NCBI GenBank assembly: GCA_946645685.1
Contig: CAMPCJ010000004.1
Location: 1-49,475, forward strand
Origin: an uncultured Clostridia bacterium
Lineage (GTDB): Bacteria > Bacillota > Clostridia > Oscillospirales > SIG627
DNA: 49,475 nt
Reading direction: 5' to 3'
In this document: piece after piece, positions 6,585 to 32,244 of the stretch
Layout of the letters: each line of letters begins with the position of its first letter
Numbering within the stretch: the stretch's first letter is position 1
Notes under the pieces: model-generated
Told to the model about the DNA's origin: nothing
The model's database searches: none
The model's input: the letters and a program-made list of their open reading frames with translations, nothing else
Position numbers and translations under genes: made by a program

Positions 6585-7481
6585 ATGGCTCACACAAAAA
6601 CCCGCCACCCCCGGGGAAAGATAGGGAAAAAGGGCGTCGTCATCCTCTCGTCTGTCGCCGCTCTCACCGTGCTTGCCGTATGTCTGGCGGTATTTCTGAT
6701 CTATCCGAACACCAAAATGGCGCCCGCCCGGCAGCTGCAGGCACAGGGACGGTATGAAGAAGCCATTGCCCTTTTGCGCCCCGTCCGGTATTACGGGCCC
6801 GCCGGGGAGCTTATCGACGCCTGCTTCGACGCCATCTACGGCAAAGACGCCTATCGCTTAGCCAAAGCCGCCCCGTCCCTGAAGGCGGGAAGCGTTTGCA
6901 CCTTCGGATCCTTTGAGCAGGACGGCAGCCGGAAAAACGGCTCGGAGCCGATTGAATGGGTCGTTCTTTCCAAGGAGGGAGACACCCTGTTTCTGATCAG
7001 TAAATACGCCCTGGATTGGCGCGCCTTCAACGTGAATGTCACCGGCGTCACCGGCGTGAATTGGCATATTTCTTCCGTGCGGGAGTGGCTGAACGGCACG
7101 TTTCTCCGCAGCGCCTTCAGCCCCACGGCGCAGCAGGTCATGGTGCCCTGCGCCATCACCTCGGTGGAAGCGGGGGAGACCGTGGAGGATCAGGATCTTG
7201 TCTTCCTCCCGGAGCCGGCGGATCTGGAGCGCTGTCCCCCGGTGGGTGCCGCCGTCACCTGCTTCCCCACGCCGTTCGCTTCCGAAGGGCGCAGCGCCCG
7301 TTCCGACCTGGGGGACGGCAGCTGTTCCTGGTGGGTGCGCCGGTACAGCGAGAAAGGCACCTCCGTTTTCTTTGTGGCGGGGGACGGCACCATGGGGGAG
7401 AACAACTGGGATCTGGCGTATCACTACCTGGGCGTCAGACCCGCCATCCGGGTGGATCTGAGCGGGATCCGGATCGATTGA
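6585..7481 (+). CDS. Membrane-anchored protein with DUF6273-like domain
   Basis: N-terminal TM helix (GVVILSSVAALTVLAVCLAVFLIY); C-terminal FGSFEQDG...PIEWVVLSKEGDTLFLISKYALDWRAFN and VRPAIRVDLSG pattern. Confidence 0.65.
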   Translation: MAHTKTRHPRGKIGKKGVVILSSVAALTVLAVCLAVFLIYPNTKMAPARQLQAQGRYEEAIALLRPVRYYGPAGELIDACFDAIYGKDAYRLAKAAPSLKAGSVCTFGSFEQDGSRKNGSEPIEWVVLSKEGDTLFLISKYALDWRAFNVNVTGVTGVNWHISSVREWLNGTFLRSAFSPTAQQVMVPCAITSVEAGETVEDQDLVFLPEPADLERCPPVGAAVTCFPTPFASEGRSARSDLGDGSCSWWVRRYSEKGTSVFFVAGDGTMGENNWDLAYHYLGVRPAIRVDLSGIRID

Positions 7482-7518
7482 AAAAATCGGAGCAAGGTTA
7501 CCTTGCTCCGATTTTTTT
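7481..7518. terminator. Rho-independent terminator between convergent genes
   Basis: AAAAAATCGGAGCAAGG-TTA-CCTTGCTCCGATTTTTT. Confidence 0.85.
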
Positions 7519-8278
7519 ATACCGCCATCCCCCGCATCTTCAAGCGAAGATTGTCCGCGATCATGGCGATGAATTCCGAGTTGGTGGGCTTCCCCTTGCT
7601 GTTCTGCACGGTGTAGCCGAAGAAGGAGTCGATCACGTCCACGTCGCCCCGATCCCACGCCACCTCGATGGCGTGACGGATGGCGCGCTCCACCCGGCTG
7701 GGCGTGGTGTTGAACTCCTTTGCCACACCGGGATACAGCGTCTTGGTCACCTCCCCGATGACCCGGCTGTCCCGCACCACCATGATGATGGCGTATCGCA
7801 GGTATTGATAGCCCTTGATGTGCGCCGGGATCCCCACCTGATGGATGATCCGGGTGACCTGAGCCTCCAGATCGAAATCGTCCTCCAGCCGAAAGCGATC
7901 CATTTCCGTCACCTGCATGATCTTGTCCGCCAGCGCGTCGTAGTCGAAGGGACGGATCACCACGCTGGATACCCCGCCGGCAAAAGCGTCCTCCAAAATT
8001 TGCCGCCCGGTGACGGCGGTGACCAGAATAAACTTGGGCGCCTTCGTTTTCATGGTGCGCTTCACCTCCCGGATCAGGCTGGCAAGGTCATAGCCGGGAA
8101 ACCACAGATCCAGAAGGACGACGTCCGGCGAAAGCCTGATGATCTCCCGCAGCGCCTCCTGTCCGTCCCCCGTGTCGCCAACCACGGAAAAGCCCAGGTT
8201 GGAAAGGCTCTCCCGGCAGACGAAGCGGAAATCGTTTCCCGCGTCGATGATGTACACTTTCTTGGCATTCTCTTTCAT
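7517..8278 (-). CDS. spo0A: Sporulation transcription factor Spo0A
   Basis: C-terminal effector domain: [57 protein letters not shown]-terminal receiver domain. Confidence 0.95.
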
Positions 8279-23690: not shown

Positions 23691-25205
23691 GTGAAACGAC
23701 GCAACGTTCTGTCGTATTTATATGAGACCGCTCCGCAAAAGCCGGACAAGATCGCCTTTGCGGACGAAACGGTCGCTCTGACCTTTCGTCAGGTGTATGA
23801 TCTTACCTCCGCCGTGGGCAGTTTTCTGCTTTCCCGGGGCGTCACCCGGCAGCCGGTGGTGGTTTTTATGCGGAAAAGCCCCCGGGAGATCGCCGCTTTC
23901 TTCGGCGTCATCGCCGCCGGCTGCTACTACGTGCCGCTGGATGAGGAAATGCCCGCCGGCAGGATCCAGCTGATATTGGACAACGTGAAGGCGCCCGTGG
24001 TGATCTGTGATGAGGACACCCTGCCTAAAACGAAAGACTTTGATCTCCGCGGTGGGAAAGCCGTTTTGTTTGACGAGGCGGCAAGCGCGCCGGCGGATCG
24101 TGCAGCGCTTGACGCGGCGTACGAAAAAGCGTTGGATATCGACCCCATCTACATCGTTTTCACTTCGGGCTCCACGGGACTGCCCAAGGGCGTGGCGGCT
24201 TGCCACCGCTCCGTGATCGACTACGTGGAGGAGCTTTCCGACATCCTTTCCTTCGGGGAGGATACCGTGTTCGGCAACCAGTCTCCGCTGTATTTCGACG
24301 CGTGCCTGAAGGAGCTGTATCCCACCTTGAAGTTCGGCGCCACCACGTACCTTGTGCCCAAAAAGCTGTTTTCCATGCCGGTCAAGCTGGTGGAGTTTCT
24401 CAATGAAAAGCGGGTCAATACCATCTGCTGGGTGGTGTCCGCCCTGACCATGATCAGCGCCTTCGACACCTTCAGCGTGGTGAAGCCCGAGACCTTGAAA
24501 ACCGTCGCCTTCGGCAGCGAAGTGTTCCCTCCCAAACAGTTTGCCATTTGGAGAAAGGCGCTGCCAGAAGCCTCCTTTACCAATCTCTACGGGCCCACGG
24601 AGGGCACGGGTATGTGCTGCTATTTCCGGGTGGATCGGGACTTGGAGGACGGGGAGCCCATCCCCATCGGCAGACCCTTCCCCAACCGGGAGATCCTGCT
24701 TCTCTCCGAGGACGGCAAAGCCGTTCCCGACGGGGAGACCGGGGAGATCTATCTGCGGGGCAACGCCGTAACGCTGGGGTATTATAACGACCCGGCTCGC
24801 ACCGCGTCCGCCTTCGTGCAGAATCCCCTGCAAAAGGCGTATCCCGAAACGGTGTACCGCACCGGGGATCTGGCGTATCGCAACAAGCGCGGGGAATTGG
24901 TGTACGTCTCCCGCCGGGATTATCAGATCAAGCACATGGGGCACCGGATCGAATTGGGGGAGATCGAAGTGAACGTGAATATGCTCCCCGGCGTCAAGCT
25001 CTCCGCCGCCTTGTACAACAGCGAGCGGAAAAAGATCGTCCTCTTTTATCTGGGGGACGTGGATGAAAAAGAGCTGGGCGCGGTTTTGAAGACAAAGCTG
25101 CCCCGGTATATGCTCCCCGGCAAGATCTGCCGTCTGGAAGAAATGCCTTTCACCCCCAACGGAAAGATCGACCGGGTCACCTTGAAAAAACGCGCGGAAG
25201 CGTAA
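23691..25205 (+). CDS. DltA-like amino-acid/acyl adenylation enzyme
   Basis: A-domain motifs FTSGSTGLPKGV, NLYGPTEGT, YRTGDLAYRNKRGELVYVSRRDYQIKHMGHRIELGEIE, NGKIDR. Confidence 0.88.
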   Translation: MKRRNVLSYLYETAPQKPDKIAFADETVALTFRQVYDLTSAVGSFLLSRGVTRQPVVVFMRKSPREIAAFFGVIAAGCYYVPLDEEMPAGRIQLILDNVKAPVVICDEDTLPKTKDFDLRGGKAVLFDEAASAPADRAALDAAYEKALDIDPIYIVFTSGSTGLPKGVAACHRSVIDYVEELSDILSFGEDTVFGNQSPLYFDACLKELYPTLKFGATTYLVPKKLFSMPVKLVEFLNEKRVNTICWVVSALTMISAFDTFSVVKPETLKTVAFGSEVFPPKQFAIWRKALPEASFTNLYGPTEGTGMCCYFRVDRDLEDGEPIPIGRPFPNREILLLSEDGKAVPDGETGEIYLRGNAVTLGYYNDPARTASAFVQNPLQKAYPETVYRTGDLAYRNKRGELVYVSRRDYQIKHMGHRIELGEIEVNVNMLPGVKLSAALYNSERKKIVLFYLGDVDEKELGAVLKTKLPRYMLPGKICRLEEMPFTPNGKIDRVTLKKRAEA

Positions 25206-25220
25206 AGGAAGGAAAAAACG

Positions 25221-25451
25221 ATGGAAGAACTGCTTGAGATCTTGAACGAACTCCACGATGACGTGGATTACGAGACCGAGGAACACCTCATTGACAACGG
25301 CATTCTGGATTCTCTGGATATCGTCACCCTCATCGCGCAGATCAGCGACCGCTTTGACGTGACCATCACCGCCAAGGACATCGCGCCGGAGAATTTCAAT
25401 TCCGCCGCCGCCATGGCTGCCCTCATCCGCCGTCTGGAAGAAGAGGGCTGA
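25221..25451 (+). CDS. Acyl/aminoacyl carrier protein (DltC-like)
   Basis: 76 aa; phosphopantetheine attachment motif NGILDSLDIVTLI. Confidence 0.88.
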   Translation: MEELLEILNELHDDVDYETEEHLIDNGILDSLDIVTLIAQISDRFDVTITAKDIAPENFNSAAAMAALIRRLEEEG

Positions 25452-25460
25452 CAGGTCTTT

Positions 25461-27038
25461 ATGCTGTTCACCTCCTACGAGTTCATCGGGTTTATCGCCG
25501 TCCTTCTGACGGTGTATTACCTGGTGCCCCGCCGGGCACGGCCGCCCCTGCTTTTGGCGGCAAGCTGCGCCTTTTACGCCTTTTCCGGGTGGGAGAATCT
25601 TCTCTTCATCGCCTGTACCGTCCTCTCCGTTTGGGGCGGCGGCTTGCTTTTGGAGAAAAATCTCGCCCGGCAGAAGGCGCGCCTTTGCGCGGGGGAGCTT
25701 TCCGCCGCCGATAAAAAGGCGATCCGGGACGGGGAAAAGAAAAAGCGCAAGGGCATCCTTGCCGCCGTTCTGCTCCTCAACCTGGGCATTCTGGCGGCGG
25801 TGAAATACCTGGGCTTTCTGACGGAAGGCTTGAACGGCGTTTTGGGGCTGTTCGGCGCCGCGCCTCTCTCCGCGGCGTCTCTCATCGTCCCCATGGGCAT
25901 ATCCTTCTACACGTTCCAGTCCATCGGCTATCTGGTGGACGTGTTTCGCGGGGCGGTGCCCGCCCAGAGGAGCCTGTGGAAATTCGCCCTGTTCGTGTCC
26001 TTTTTTCCTCAGTTGGTACAGGGGCCCATCAGCCGCTATGGGGATCTGTCCCGGACGCTTTTTGAGCCGCTTCCCCTGAGCTATGCCGTCCTGCGCCGGG
26101 GACTTGTGCGGGTTTTGTGGGGCTATTTCAAGAAACTTGTGATCGCGGATCGCCTTTCCGTGGCGGTGCTCGCCATGACGGGCGGGCAGGATCGCGGCGG
26201 CTTTGCCCTGGCGCTTCTGTTCCTCTATACCATCCAGCTTTACGCGGACTTCACCGGCGGCATCGACGTCACCATCGGTCTGGCGGAGGCGATGGGCGTC
26301 ACCGTGGCGGAAAACTTCCGCCGCCCGTATCTGGCGGTTTCCTTGAAGGATTACTGGCGCCGGTGGCACATTTCCATGTGTACCTGGTTTAGGGATTACC
26401 TCTTTTATCCCGTGTCCACCTCCCGCCTGATGCGTTCCCTCACCAAGGGAACGAAAAAGGTTTTCGGGGATAAAGCGGGACGGAAAGTTCCGCTGTATCT
26501 GTCCTCGTTCATCGTGTGGGGCGCCACTGGCCTGTGGCACGGCGCCAACTGGAACTTTTTGGTTTGGGGACTTTCCAATTGGGCGATCCTGATGGTCTCC
26601 CAGGAGCTGGAGGGGGCGTGGGGAGCCTTCCGTAAGCGCTTCCCCAAAACAGGCGGAAAAGCCTGGCGCGCCGTCGCCGTGGGCAGGACTTTTCTGCTGG
26701 TGGCTGCGATGAATCTCTTCGATTGCTATCCCACCCTGGGCGGCACCTTCGGCGCCTTCTTTTCCATTTTCGATCCCCGTGCTTGGGCGGGCTTTTCCTT
26801 TTCCTCGCTTCTCTCTCTCGGGCTGACCGGCGCGGACTTCGCGCTGACCGGCGTCGCCGTCGTCCTGATGTTCGCCGTGTCCTGCGCGGGGGCGTGGGGA
26901 GACGTGCGCGACCGTCTGGAAAAAATGCCCTTTGCCCTGCGCGTCGTTTTGCTGCTGCTTCTGTTCTTTGCCGTTTTGATCTTCGGCGCCTACGGCAGGG
27001 GATATGACGCGGGGCAGTTCATCTACAACCGGTTTTGA
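25461..27038 (+). CDS. MBOAT family O-acyltransferase (DltB-like)
   Basis: Multi-TM; YTFQSIGYLVDVFRG, YWRRWHISMCTWFRDYLFYP, GLWHGANWNFLVWG (MBOAT His). Confidence 0.92.
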   Translation: MLFTSYEFIGFIAVLLTVYYLVPRRARPPLLLAASCAFYAFSGWENLLFIACTVLSVWGGGLLLEKNLARQKARLCAGELSAADKKAIRDGEKKKRKGILAAVLLLNLGILAAVKYLGFLTEGLNGVLGLFGAAPLSAASLIVPMGISFYTFQSIGYLVDVFRGAVPAQRSLWKFALFVSFFPQLVQGPISRYGDLSRTLFEPLPLSYAVLRRGLVRVLWGYFKKLVIADRLSVAVLAMTGGQDRGGFALALLFLYTIQLYADFTGGIDVTIGLAEAMGVTVAENFRRPYLAVSLKDYWRRWHISMCTWFRDYLFYPVSTSRLMRSLTKGTKKVFGDKAGRKVPLYLSSFIVWGATGLWHGANWNFLVWGLSNWAILMVSQELEGAWGAFRKRFPKTGGKAWRAVAVGRTFLLVAAMNLFDCYPTLGGTFGAFFSIFDPRAWAGFSFSSLLSLGLTGADFALTGVAVVLMFAVSCAGAWGDVRDRLEKMPFALRVVLLLLLFFAVLIFGAYGRGYDAGQFIYNRF

Positions 27039-27049
27039 GGAGGGGTGGA

Positions 27050-28093
27050 ATGAAACGAGTGAAAACCATCCTGCGGGTTTTGTGCGCCCTGCTTCTTTTC
27101 ATCGGCACCTTTCTCCTCCTTCAGAGCCTTTTGACCCCCAAGTACGTGGACGACGTGGTGGAGGGCGCTTTTGTCGCGGAGTATTACCGGGAAAAGAAGG
27201 ATCACGACGTGATCTTCATCGGGGACTGCGAGGTGTACGAGAACTTTTCCCCCGCCGTCCTCTGGGAGGAATACGGCGTCAACAGTTACATCCGCGGCTC
27301 CGCGGAGCAGTACATCTTCCAGTCCTACTACCTGCTGGAAGACACCTTTTACTATGAAAAACCGTCCGTGGTGGTGTTCAACGTCCAGTCCCTCCAGTTT
27401 GGGGAGGCGCAGAGCGAAGCCTACAACCGTATGACGCTGGAGGGGATGCGCTGGTCTCCCGCCAAGGTGGCGGCGATCCGGGCTTCCATGACGGAAGACG
27501 AGCATTTTATCGAGTACGTTTTTCCCCTGCTGCGGTATCACGACCGCTGGTCGGATCTGAAGCAGACGGATTTTCAGTACCTCTTTCACAAAAAAACCGT
27601 GTCCCACAACGGCTACTATATGCGCCTTGACGCCAAGGCGGTTCCGGAAAACCTGCCCCCCGTCAAGCCCCTGGGGGACTATTCCTTCAGCGACCGGGCG
27701 TGGTCGTATCTGGATCGGATCGTGGAGGCGTGTAAACGGGAGGGCGTGCAGCTCCTTCTCATCAAAGCGCCCAGCGTCTTTCCCCATTGGTATGACGAGT
27801 GGGACGAGCAGGTAAAAGCGTACGCCGAAAAACAAGGCGTTCGGTATATCAATTTTCTGGAGCATACCGAGGAGATCGGGCTGGACTTTGCCACCGATAC
27901 CTACGACGCCGGTCAGCACATGAACCTGTCCGGCGCGGAGAAATGCGCCCGCTGGATCGGGCGGATCCTGGCGGAGGACTACGGCGTCCCCGACCGCCGG
28001 GGCGAGGAGGCTCTTTCCGCGGCGTGGGCGGGGAAACTCGCTTCTTACCGAGCGGAGATCGAAGAACAAAAGGAACGATACGGTTTATCTTAA
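27050..28093 (+). CDS. DltD-position SGNH-like membrane-anchored protein with GDC at block I
   Basis: N-terminal TM; DVIFIGDCEVYENFSPAVLWEEYGVNSY at the SGNH block I position; C-terminal DTYDAGQHMNLSGAEKCARW resembling DltD/DUF1574-type catalytic Asp/His region. Confidence 0.7.
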   Translation: MKRVKTILRVLCALLLFIGTFLLLQSLLTPKYVDDVVEGAFVAEYYREKKDHDVIFIGDCEVYENFSPAVLWEEYGVNSYIRGSAEQYIFQSYYLLEDTFYYEKPSVVVFNVQSLQFGEAQSEAYNRMTLEGMRWSPAKVAAIRASMTEDEHFIEYVFPLLRYHDRWSDLKQTDFQYLFHKKTVSHNGYYMRLDAKAVPENLPPVKPLGDYSFSDRAWSYLDRIVEACKREGVQLLLIKAPSVFPHWYDEWDEQVKAYAEKQGVRYINFLEHTEEIGLDFATDTYDAGQHMNLSGAEKCARWIGRILAEDYGVPDRRGEEALSAAWAGKLASYRAEIEEQKERYGLS

Positions 28094-28107: not shown

Positions 28108-29946
28108 ATGTGCGGCATTTGCGGAATGTTTGAAAAAGAAGACCGTGCCCCCGACGGCGCGGTTTTGGATCGGATGCTGGAAAAGATCGCCCACCGCGGG
28201 CCGGACGGCGTCAAAAAGACGGTCGCCGGCAGCGTGGGATTGGGCTTTTCCCGGCTGAGCTTTATTGACCTTGCCGGCGGTATGCAGCCGCTGGAAAACG
28301 AGGACGGCACCCTGCACCTGGCGGTAAACGGCGAAGTGTTCAATTATCAGGAGCTGCGCCGGGCACTTCTGGCGCGGGGACACCGGTTCCGCAGCGAGAC
28401 GGACGTGGAGGTCATCCTTCATCTCTATGAAGAATACGGCACGGATTTTCTGTCACTCCTCAACGGACAGTTTGCCATCGCTCTCTATGATGAAAAAAAG
28501 CGGCAGCTTCTCCTTGCCCGGGACGCCATGGGCATCTGCCCGCTCTTTTATACCGTCCTGGACGGCACCCTCGTTTTCGCCTCCGAGATCAAAGCCATCC
28601 TGGAATATCCCGGCGTCCCCCGGCAGTTGAATCTCGCCGCCGTGGATCAGCTGATGAATTTCCCCGGCGTGGTTTCCCCCGTCACCTTCTTCAAGGGCGT
28701 CCACGCCCTGGCGCCGGGACAGATGCTCCTGCAGCGCTCCGGGAAAGAGGCGCGTGTGGAGACCTGGTGGGATCTGTCCTTCCCGGAAGAGGAAGAGGAT
28801 AAGGGAGAGGCGTATTATACCGAACGCCTGCGCGTCCTTTTGAAGGAAGCCATCGACCGCCGCCTGGTGGCGGATGTGCCCATCGGCTTTTACGTCTCCG
28901 GCGGGCTGGACAGCTCCGTGGTGGCGTGTATGATCGGCAAATATCTCCTGAACAGCGCCTATTCCTTCTCCGCGGAGATCGGGGAAGGGGAGCTGGACGA
29001 AAGCGCGTTCCAGGCAATGGTGCGGGAGACCGTCCACTCTCACCACTACGCCGTGAAGGTGGCGGAAGAGGAGATCTGGGAGAATCTCACCCGGGTCATT
29101 TACCACGCGGAAAGCGCCGTGAAGGAAAGCTACGACGTGGCGGCGTTCCTGCTCAGCGGCCTGGTGCAGGCTTCTCCCGCCAAAGCGGTGCTCACCGGGC
29201 AGGGATCCGACGAACAGCTCTGCGGCTACGTGGGCTATATGCTGGATCGCTTCCGCCTGATGCAGAAGGGGCAAATGACCCCGGAGGAGCAGGCGTTGAA
29301 TGAAAAACTGTGGGGCGACCCCTACTTCCGGTACGAAAGAAACCATCCCGAGATCCGCAAGGTACACCGCCGGCTTTACAGCAAGGAGCTGGCGGGGGAG
29401 TTGGACTCTTTTTCCGCACTGAACCAAAGCCCCGTCAACGTGGAGCGGCTGAAAGGGCTTTCCTCTCAGAAACGCCGTTCGTACATCGACTGCAAACTGC
29501 GCCTGGGGGATCACCTGCTCATCGAGCACGGGGATCATATGTTCTTCTCCCATTCCGTGGAGGGGCGCCATCCTTTCCTGGATCCCGAGGTGGTGCGTTT
29601 CATCACCACCATTCCGGACCGGTACAAGCTCAACGGCGCCAACGAAAAGTACATTTTGAAGAAGGCGGGGGAGGGCATCGTGCCCGAGCCCATCCTCAAA
29701 CGGCGCAAATTTCCCTTCCAGGCGCCCGGTATGTCCGCCATGGTGAAAAAGAGCGCCCCGGGCATGGCGTTTCTGGATGAGAGCCTCATCAAAAAATACG
29801 GCGTGTTCGACCCGGCTTTTATCGAGCAGATGAAGCGGGACTACGCCGTGGACGGCTTTAAGCTGATGGGCGCCTATGAGATCGACTATCTTATGATCGC
29901 CCTGACCGTGACCATTTTATGCGAGACCTTCGGTCTTTCCGTGTGA
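28108..29946 (+). CDS. asnB: Asparagine synthase-type glutamine-hydrolysing amidotransferase
   Basis: Cys2 glutaminase MCGICGMFEK, IAHRGPDG, VNGEVFNYQEL; synthetase PP-loop SGGLDSS; GQGSDEQLCGY; RHPFLD. Confidence 0.9.
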   Translation: MCGICGMFEKEDRAPDGAVLDRMLEKIAHRGPDGVKKTVAGSVGLGFSRLSFIDLAGGMQPLENEDGTLHLAVNGEVFNYQELRRALLARGHRFRSETDVEVILHLYEEYGTDFLSLLNGQFAIALYDEKKRQLLLARDAMGICPLFYTVLDGTLVFASEIKAILEYPGVPRQLNLAAVDQLMNFPGVVSPVTFFKGVHALAPGQMLLQRSGKEARVETWWDLSFPEEEEDKGEAYYTERLRVLLKEAIDRRLVADVPIGFYVSGGLDSSVVACMIGKYLLNSAYSFSAEIGEGELDESAFQAMVRETVHSHHYAVKVAEEEIWENLTRVIYHAESAVKESYDVAAFLLSGLVQASPAKAVLTGQGSDEQLCGYVGYMLDRFRLMQKGQMTPEEQALNEKLWGDPYFRYERNHPEIRKVHRRLYSKELAGELDSFSALNQSPVNVERLKGLSSQKRRSYIDCKLRLGDHLLIEHGDHMFFSHSVEGRHPFLDPEVVRFITTIPDRYKLNGANEKYILKKAGEGIVPEPILKRRKFPFQAPGMSAMVKKSAPGMAFLDESLIKKYGVFDPAFIEQMKRDYAVDGFKLMGAYEIDYLMIALTVTILCETFGLSV

Positions 29947-29951
29947 GGTAT

Positions 29952-31673
29952 ATGGAGCAAAAGGATTTGAAAAAGCCGCAGCTGGATCTTCGGCCCGGCA
30001 AGTGGAAACCCAAAAAGGGAAAAAAGGTGAAAAAGCACAGACGCCTTCGGCTGCCCGTCCTGCTTTCGGGATGTGTCCTGCTGCTTGCCGCGGCAGGGCT
30101 GATCACGTTTTTCGCCGTAAAGAACAGCCGGGTCTATACCCGGGTGGAGGTGGAAGCGGGAGATCTGACCCTTGTGCCGGAGGACTTTTCCAAAAACGGC
30201 GCCCCGGTCAGCTTCGACCCCTCCTTTTCTCCGGACAGCGTGGATTTCCACACCCCCGGAACTTACAGCGTCAAGCTGAAAAGCGGCGTCTTCCACTACA
30301 CCGCCTCCCTTACCGTCAAGGATACGGTACCGCCCTCCGGGCGCGCCGTGGCGGGTATGCTCTCCCGGGGGGAGCGGAGCGACCCTTCGGCTTTGGTTGC
30401 CGACGTGAAGGATGAAACGCGCGTCACCGTTTCCTTTGAGACCGAGCCGGATACCGCTTCCTGCGGCGTCCGGGACGTGACGGTGCTTTTGACGGATCTG
30501 GGCGGGAACGTGACGAAGCTCCCCGCCACCCTGACCGTCATACCGCTGTATACCGTCCTCGTCCGGGAAGCGGGCGGACAGCTGACCCCGGCGGATTTCA
30601 TCCTGCCGGACTGCTCGGTCGCCGAGCTGTTCCCGGTGGGGGACGACGGCTCTCCCGCACAGGTGGATCTCGCCGCCTTGACGGAAAGTGCCGGAGATCA
30701 TCCCCTGCGCTTCTCCGCGGACGGGCTGATCTGTGACTGCGTTCTGCGGGTGAAGGATACCACGCCTCCCGTGATGGTCCTGCGGGACGTAACGAGCGCC
30801 GTGGGCGCGGAGGTGGAAGCCGCCCTGTTCGTGGAAAGCGTGCAAGACGCCGGCAGCGTGAGCTTCACCGTTTCCTTTACCGCCCCCCTGGATCAAACGG
30901 GCACGCAGACCGTGACCATTCGCGGTGTGGATGATTCCGGCAACGCCGCGGTCGGGAAGGCGACTCTGACCCTGGTGCCGGACGAGGAGCCTCCCGCCAT
31001 CCTCGGCGCGGAAAACATCGTTTCCTACGTGGGCAAAGCCGTCAGCTACCTCTCCGGGGTCTGGGCGGAGGATGCGCTGGATCCCAAGCCGTCTCTCACC
31101 GTGGACAGCGGCGCCGTGGATCTGCAAAAGGAAGGCGTCTACCCCGTGACCTACGTGGCGACGGACGCCGCCGGTAACCGGTCGGAAAAGCAGATCACCC
31201 TCACCCTGCTTACGGAGACCGTTTCCGAAGCGGACGTGATGGCAAAGGCGAAGGAGATCGTATCTTCCATCATCACGCCGGATATGACCCCCCGGGACAA
31301 GGTGGAAGCGATTTACCGGTGGATGAAGAAAAACGTCGCCTACCGGGACGGCGCCACCATCGTGGACTGGCAGCAGGCGGCGTATCAGGGCTTGACCACG
31401 CACCGGGGCGACTGCTCCGTCTTTCAAATGACCAGCCGCGCCCTTCTGACGGCGGCGGGCATTGAGAACCGGCTCATCGATACCGTGCCCTATTACAACG
31501 TGCATTACTGGAATTTGGTGAACATCGGGGAAGGCTGGTATCATTTCGACGCCACTTCGTTCTACGATAAACAGGACTTCTGCTATGTCGACAGCGCCAC
31601 CCTGGCGGAGCGCTCCGTCCATTACCGCCGCTCCCACACCTTTGATCCGGCACGCTTTTCCTACGTCTCATAG
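29952..31673 (+). CDS. Membrane-anchored transglutaminase-like protein with Ig-like repeats
   Basis: Basic N-terminus plus TM; Ig-like segments with DTTPPV and DEEPPAI; transglutaminase triad THRGDCSVFQMTSRALLTAAGI / VHYWNLV / YHFDAT. Confidence 0.82.
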   Translation: MEQKDLKKPQLDLRPGKWKPKKGKKVKKHRRLRLPVLLSGCVLLLAAAGLITFFAVKNSRVYTRVEVEAGDLTLVPEDFSKNGAPVSFDPSFSPDSVDFHTPGTYSVKLKSGVFHYTASLTVKDTVPPSGRAVAGMLSRGERSDPSALVADVKDETRVTVSFETEPDTASCGVRDVTVLLTDLGGNVTKLPATLTVIPLYTVLVREAGGQLTPADFILPDCSVAELFPVGDDGSPAQVDLAALTESAGDHPLRFSADGLICDCVLRVKDTTPPVMVLRDVTSAVGAEVEAALFVESVQDAGSVSFTVSFTAPLDQTGTQTVTIRGVDDSGNAAVGKATLTLVPDEEPPAILGAENIVSYVGKAVSYLSGVWAEDALDPKPSLTVDSGAVDLQKEGVYPVTYVATDAAGNRSEKQITLTLLTETVSEADVMAKAKEIVSSIITPDMTPRDKVEAIYRWMKKNVAYRDGATIVDWQQAAYQGLTTHRGDCSVFQMTSRALLTAAGIENRLIDTVPYYNVHYWNLVNIGEGWYHFDATSFYDKQDFCYVDSATLAERSVHYRRSHTFDPARFSYVS

Positions 31674-31689
31674 AAAGGATGAATGAAAC

Positions 31690-32244
31690 ATGAAACGCTT
31701 TTTGACCGCCCTTCTCGCCGTCGCCCTCCTTTTGGGTCTTGCCGCCTGCGCGGGCGAGGTGAAGGAGATCCGCAAAACCGCCGCTGAAGAAAAATCCGCC
31801 CCCGCCGTGACCGTGGGGAAGGAGGGCTCCGTAGACGGCTACGTCTTCCGTGCGGGGGATTTTTCCATCGCCGTGGACGCCGATATGGCGCCCGTCCTCG
31901 CCGCTCTCGGAGAGGCAAGGAGCTATTACGAGTCCGTCAGCTGCGCTTTCAACGGATTGGATAAGCTTTACACCTACGACCACTTTCAAGTCACCAGCTA
32001 CCCCGCGCCGGACGGCGACCGGGTGCAGACCGTCTGGCTGATGGACGATACCGTCGCCACCCCCGAGGGATTGCGGGTGGGCGCTCCCGCCTCTCAGGTG
32101 GACGCCCTCTACGGCTCGTCTTTCGAGGCGGTGGGCGCCGAGCGGATCTACTCCAAAGGCGGTATGAAACTGAAAGTCATCGTCCAGGAAGACAAAGTCA
32201 CCTCCATCACCTACCAGTCCGTCATCGCTGACGAAAACGATTGA
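31690..32244 (+). CDS. Conserved hypothetical lipoprotein
   Basis: Signal peptide with lipobox LGLAAC; YVFRAGDFSIAVDADMAPVLAALGEARSYYESVSCAFNGLDKLYTYDHFQV. Confidence 0.75.
   Translation: MKRFLTALLAVALLLGLAACAGEVKEIRKTAAEEKSAPAVTVGKEGSVDGYVFRAGDFSIAVDADMAPVLAALGEARSYYESVSCAFNGLDKLYTYDHFQVTSYPAPDGDRVQTVWLMDDTVATPEGLRVGAPASQVDALYGSSFEAVGAERIYSKGGMKLKVIVQEDKVTSITYQSVIADEND

Follow-up and report, generated by a model that had tools for sequence, protein, structure and literature searches.

Two described systems lie closest to the locus analysed here: the Dlt pathway, to which DltD (PF04914) belongs, and PatA/PatB, the peptidoglycan O-acetyltransferase. To our knowledge, the characterised MBOAT–SGNH pairs all work through a Ser intermediate, and literature searches for an SGNH transferase with a Cys nucleophile found no report. 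In PatA/PatB, an MBOAT membrane acyltransferase precedes a distinct SGNH protein, PatB, and acetyl-CoA is the donor. It has been shown experimentally that the Tyr in the C-terminal FXYXXF motif of PatA bears the acyl group; in the Dlt pathway, the motif is found in DltX (PMC12148441). Alternation of Ser and Cys at one catalytic position, with the rest of the triad kept, is documented for α/β-hydrolases and 3C proteases (PMC9825947); the main text of that paper does not mention SGNH or GDSL.

The window, by which we mean the whole analysed stretch of 49,475 nucleotides of DNA from an uncultured Clostridia bacterium, contains at positions 27050–28093 a gene for an SGNH-fold acyltransferase-like protein of 347 residues, with an N-terminal membrane helix (residues 2–27) and with Cys in place of Ser in block I. 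We refer to it as the GDC protein; its gene and all others described below are on the + strand. The codons at 27218–27238 (ATC GGG GAC TGC GAG GTG TAC) read I-G-D-C-E-V-Y, placing the G58-D59-C60 motif at 27221–27229 (GGG GAC TGC) and the Cys60 codon at 27227–27229. This bears out the substitution reported in the preliminary description. The retention of the C-terminal Asp/His region, D283-T-Y-D286-A-G-Q-H290 (block V, DTYDAGQH at residues 283–290, 27896–27919), is borne out too. Compared with the SGNH/GDSL superfamily, the block V Asp and His are present and conserved (D283, D286 and H290), and the catalytic Ser of block I is replaced. The DltD label did not hold up, since the protein had no match to PF04914, the Pfam DltD family, at E ≤ 1, and "DltD" can describe its position only. 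Its sole Pfam match was a weak one to Lipase_GDSL_2 (E = 0.0034, below the cut-off), and NCBIfam gave nothing of note. A search for PF04914 across the genome also gave no match, while B. subtilis and L. lactis controls did.

An AlphaFold model built from 30 relatives (pLDDT 80, pTM 0.81) consists of the membrane helix (residues 2–27) followed by an α/β domain with a predicted SGNH fold, in which C60 lies directly past a strand (residues 54–58), at the start of a helix. When the model was compared to the PDB with Foldseek, the top match was E. faecium DltD (6pfx, E = 2e-5), and S. pneumoniae DltD, GDSL esterases/lipases, TesA and PatB were also matched. Searched by sequence against solved structures, the GDC protein gave chance matches only. 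Profile comparison with a canonical DltD (locus L174) aligned the C-terminal part alone, and weakly (E = 0.0068), with D-A-G-Q-H opposite D-D-P-S-H. His164 (27539–27541), which is part of a YH.RW motif, was invariant in the aligned Cys and Ser relatives.

Upstream are genes for a DltA-like adenylation enzyme (23691–25205), whose predicted pocket code, DAKCVFLGMK, is unlike that of DltA; a DltC-like carrier protein (25221–25451) with its attachment Ser in DSLD; and an MBOAT membrane acyltransferase (25461–27038) with His360 in LWHG and a PatA-like C-terminal extension. The last ends in FIYNRF (27018–27035), a C-terminal FXYXXF acyl-shuttle motif with the Tyr522 codon at 27024–27026, and the SGNH protein follows, which is the PatAB type of arrangement. 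The same motif ended 124 of the 126 upstream MBOAT ORFs at loci with the cysteine (Cys loci); the exceptions were a split MBOAT (L133) and a locus at which the MBOAT is fragmented (L136). The genome encodes one MBOAT only, and no DltX-like small ORF with FXYXXF was found near the operon. Against the DltA, DltB and DltC equivalogs, the adenylation enzyme, MBOAT and carrier scored 276.7 of 559.85, 153.5 of 375 and 42.8 of 68 bits, respectively, all below the cut-off. By sequence, these three proteins are related to Dlt; because the Pfam DltD and Dlt equivalog cut-offs failed, we call the GDC system Dlt-like rather than Dlt.

The GDC protein thus resembles DltD in its place after the adenylation enzyme, carrier and MBOAT genes, its membrane helix, its SGNH fold, for which DltD is the best structural match, and an Asp/His region close to the C terminus, but it has Cys for Ser and no Pfam DltD match, and its system lacks DltX, has sub-threshold pathway proteins and has a different adenylation pocket. 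The likeness to PatA/PatB lies in the MBOAT with its own C-terminal FXYXXF, in the separate SGNH protein that follows it and in the presence of PatB among the fold matches, whereas the donor there is acetyl-CoA rather than an adenylation enzyme and carrier, and the PatB nucleophile is Ser.

A scan of translated genomes, one for each species, yielded 401 relatives. In the best 80 of these, examined at 57–82% identity, Cys60 was invariant, together with G58, D59, E61, D283, D286 and H290. Since one of the search patterns had included the Cys, the test was repeated by profile on 398 genomes from the phylum and 388 from the class. The resulting scores fell into two sets, with none between about 440 and 212 bits: every one of the 131 ORFs in the upper set (at least 430 bits) had Cys and every one of the 36 in the lower set had Ser, some of these rows being duplicates. 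A third sample, drawn from one family (328 genomes), populated this interval, with four Ser proteins (L283–L286) at 286–342 bits and a short Cys protein (L282) at 371 bits; it also contained a Ser protein (L298) at 448 bits. Over all samples, Cys was found in 171 of 222 distinct ORFs and in 171 of the 172 distinct members of one clade, and relatives outside this clade had Ser wherever the residue could be read, and Cys in none. The cysteine is fixed across a large monophyletic subfamily. Free variation at this position was looked for, and one natural Cys-to-Ser change was found among the 172 members; a nucleophilic Ser elsewhere was also sought, and the Ser residues conserved in the clade fell in other columns of the alignment than the nucleophile position of the relatives. 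Both Cys codons are in use (TGC in 96 and TGT in 75 of the 171), so it is the residue and not the codon that is conserved, and this pattern indicates purifying selection on the cysteine. H290 was invariant in Cys and Ser relatives alike, D283 and D286 were present in 99–100% of the Cys clade, and D59 and E61 were retained there. GNC replaced GDC in L296, L297 and L304 (8 distinct sampled ORFs); at this motif the Asp varies and the Cys remains constant.

In a first maximum-likelihood tree (76 rows), all Cys proteins fell on one side of a single branch with 100/100 support. A second tree (87 rows) recovered the Cys clade, including L298, at 100/99, with the Ser proteins L283–L286 as its sister and the joint clade supported at 100/99. 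These sisters have a G[SPA]ST motif and the same adenylation enzyme–carrier–MBOAT–SGNH genes, but differ in their Ser nucleophile, in their pocket code and in having no lipoprotein or transglutaminase gene nearby. L298 (positions 6746–7996, + strand), which reads GDSEVYSNF and so has a Ser within the Cys clade, is nested with L136 and L141 (100/100). Its Ser codon, AGT, is one base off TGT. L136, the locus with the fragmented MBOAT, has lost its adenylation enzyme and carrier, and L141 is also without both; L298 itself adjoins a foreign MBOAT that belongs to a different cluster and has a carrier-like ORF of its own. The simplest history suggested by the trees is one Ser-to-Cys change, followed by one reversion once the pathway had been dismantled, L298 being the single case of such a reversion after pathway loss.

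The adenylation enzymes were compared at the usual NRPS pocket positions. By alignment, the code is DAKC[VI]FLG[MV]K at most Cys loci, with other codes at seven; it is DA[IV]R.F.G.K in the Ser sisters, and DltA and the more distant Ser relatives differ again. Because the pocket differs from that of DltA and is conserved in most Cys loci, the enzyme probably activates an amino acid other than D-Ala. A link between the cysteine and one particular amino-acid pocket is weakened by the seven Cys loci with other codes. A link to carrier-fed (aminoacyl) pathways in general was rejected, as an adenylation enzyme and carrier are also found with Ser relatives; since these have the complete adenylation enzyme–carrier–MBOAT set, aminoacyl transfer alone does not demand Cys. 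As a possible source of the acceptor, the genome encodes three sulfatase-family proteins resembling LTA synthase, an LtaS assignment that is our own reading of the sequence.

The comparisons establish, at the level of sequence, the position of the cysteine, its fixation and single origin, the gene set around it and the shuttle motif. On this basis we consider it reasonably likely that the locus encodes a hybrid Dlt/Pat-type pathway, in which the terminal extracytoplasmic transferase uses a catalytic Cys for the SGNH Ser. The adenylation enzyme would activate an amino acid and load it onto the carrier as a thioester. By analogy with the experiments on PatA and DltX, the MBOAT would then pass the acyl group across the membrane onto its own Tyr522, in FIYNRF, as an aryl ester. 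With His290 and an Asp (286 or 283) to activate it, Cys60 would take over the acyl group as a covalent thioester, and a nucleophile of an envelope polymer, probably (lipo)teichoic acid, would receive it. Of this scheme, we infer the thioester as well as the identity of the amino acid and of the acceptor. The cysteine-based acyl transfer suggested in the preliminary description fits the fixed Cys, the kept Asp/His and an MBOAT with an intact shuttle Tyr, although the thioester itself goes beyond these observations. The same three features disfavour drift or a decayed enzyme. There are counterpoints, among them the matching gene set of the Ser relatives noted above. L298 appears to have tolerated Ser at least once. 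The main loose end is a set of four sampled loci in one genus (L138, L139, L142 and L143) that keep the Cys with no adenylation enzyme, carrier or MBOAT adjacent. At these loci the GDC, transglutaminase and lipoprotein genes are found together, and the MBOAT is elsewhere in the genome, in a cluster of a different kind. At L139, glycosyltransferase-like genes lie immediately upstream.

The genes downstream of the GDC protein bear on an alternative. They encode an AsnB-type glutamine amidotransferase (28108–29946), an exported protein with Ig-like domains and a transglutaminase core (29919–31673), and a lipoprotein with a tandem α/β repeat fold and an invariant Cys85 (31690–32244; Cys85 codon 31942–31944). 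Among 78 Cys loci having at least 4.5 kb upstream, neighbouring genes for the MBOAT were found in 72, the carrier in 71, the adenylation enzyme in 63, the transglutaminase-like protein in 65, the lipoprotein in 62 and AsnB in 36. AsnB amidates peptidoglycan in Listeria (PMC8554201), which, by analogy, suggests a charge-modifying locus. Of 50 genomes that encode the GDC protein, 48 also have the lipoprotein, against 7 of 338 that lack the GDC protein (Fisher p about 3e-51, uncorrected for relatedness), and the lipoprotein was absent from all 36 Ser loci first examined. Its predicted fold has two α/β repeats, for which PDB matches were weak, and Cys85, which is not the lipobox Cys, was present in all 102 GDC-locus lipoproteins in which the position could be read. 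This close companionship, the invariant Cys85, the frequency of the transglutaminase-like gene and the genus that keeps all three genes together without the MBOAT would suit a Cys60 that stably accepts the acyl group or docks the shuttle peptide instead of turning over as a nucleophile, with another protein, such as the lipoprotein or the transglutaminase-like protein, completing the transfer. We regard this as unlikely: His290 and the Asp residues are as conserved as in the Ser enzymes, and a mere acceptor would need neither. Furthermore, lipoprotein homologues with the same Cys adjoin genes for an MBOAT and AlgX/DHHW-type SGNH proteins in genomes that lack the GDC protein, so that Cys85 is not specific to Cys60, and the lipoprotein seems to serve MBOAT–SGNH systems in general as an accessory. 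A direct Cys60–Cys85 pairing is weakened, as Cys85 also occurs in homologues that neighbour Ser-type systems.

A thioesterase or editing enzyme, in which Cys60 hydrolyses or re-routes acyl-Tyr or envelope esters, is improbable. The SGNH fold does cover hydrolases, TesA being one of the fold matches, and the gene is kept at some loci after loss of the adenylation enzyme and carrier. However, in most loci it directly follows the MBOAT, in the position of the terminal transferase, and a further SGNH partner was not identified at these loci. Least credible of all is a pseudoenzyme with a redox or structural Cys60 (disulfide or metal): Cys is indeed not the ancestral nucleophile, and the MBOAT of the Cys clade could work with another partner, but the clade has kept D59, E61, H290 and the two Asp, the Cys is undecayed over 171 members, and C228, the only other conserved Cys (0.98 and 0.81 in Cys and Ser relatives), is common to both groups, for which reason a C60–C228 disulfide was rejected.

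Taken further, the reading of Cys60 as the nucleophile of a terminal transferase raises the tentative and rather doubtful prospect of a separate branch of envelope acylation, in which the final intermediate would be a Cys thioester and not a Ser ester, the enzyme could aminoacylate amines to give amides or could handle an amino acid other than D-Ala, and the lipoprotein would be an obligate partner. The natural Cys version, the Ser sisters with the same genes and the one reversion make the last transfer step testable, and thioesters can be trapped and labelled. The locus may also point to an amino acid or acceptor so far overlooked at the surface of abundant gut Clostridia, where changes of this sort can control how well cells resist cationic peptides and lysozyme. 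The Ser-to-Cys swap, which happened once and was kept in about 170 proteins, suggests a thioester variant of the serine chemistry.
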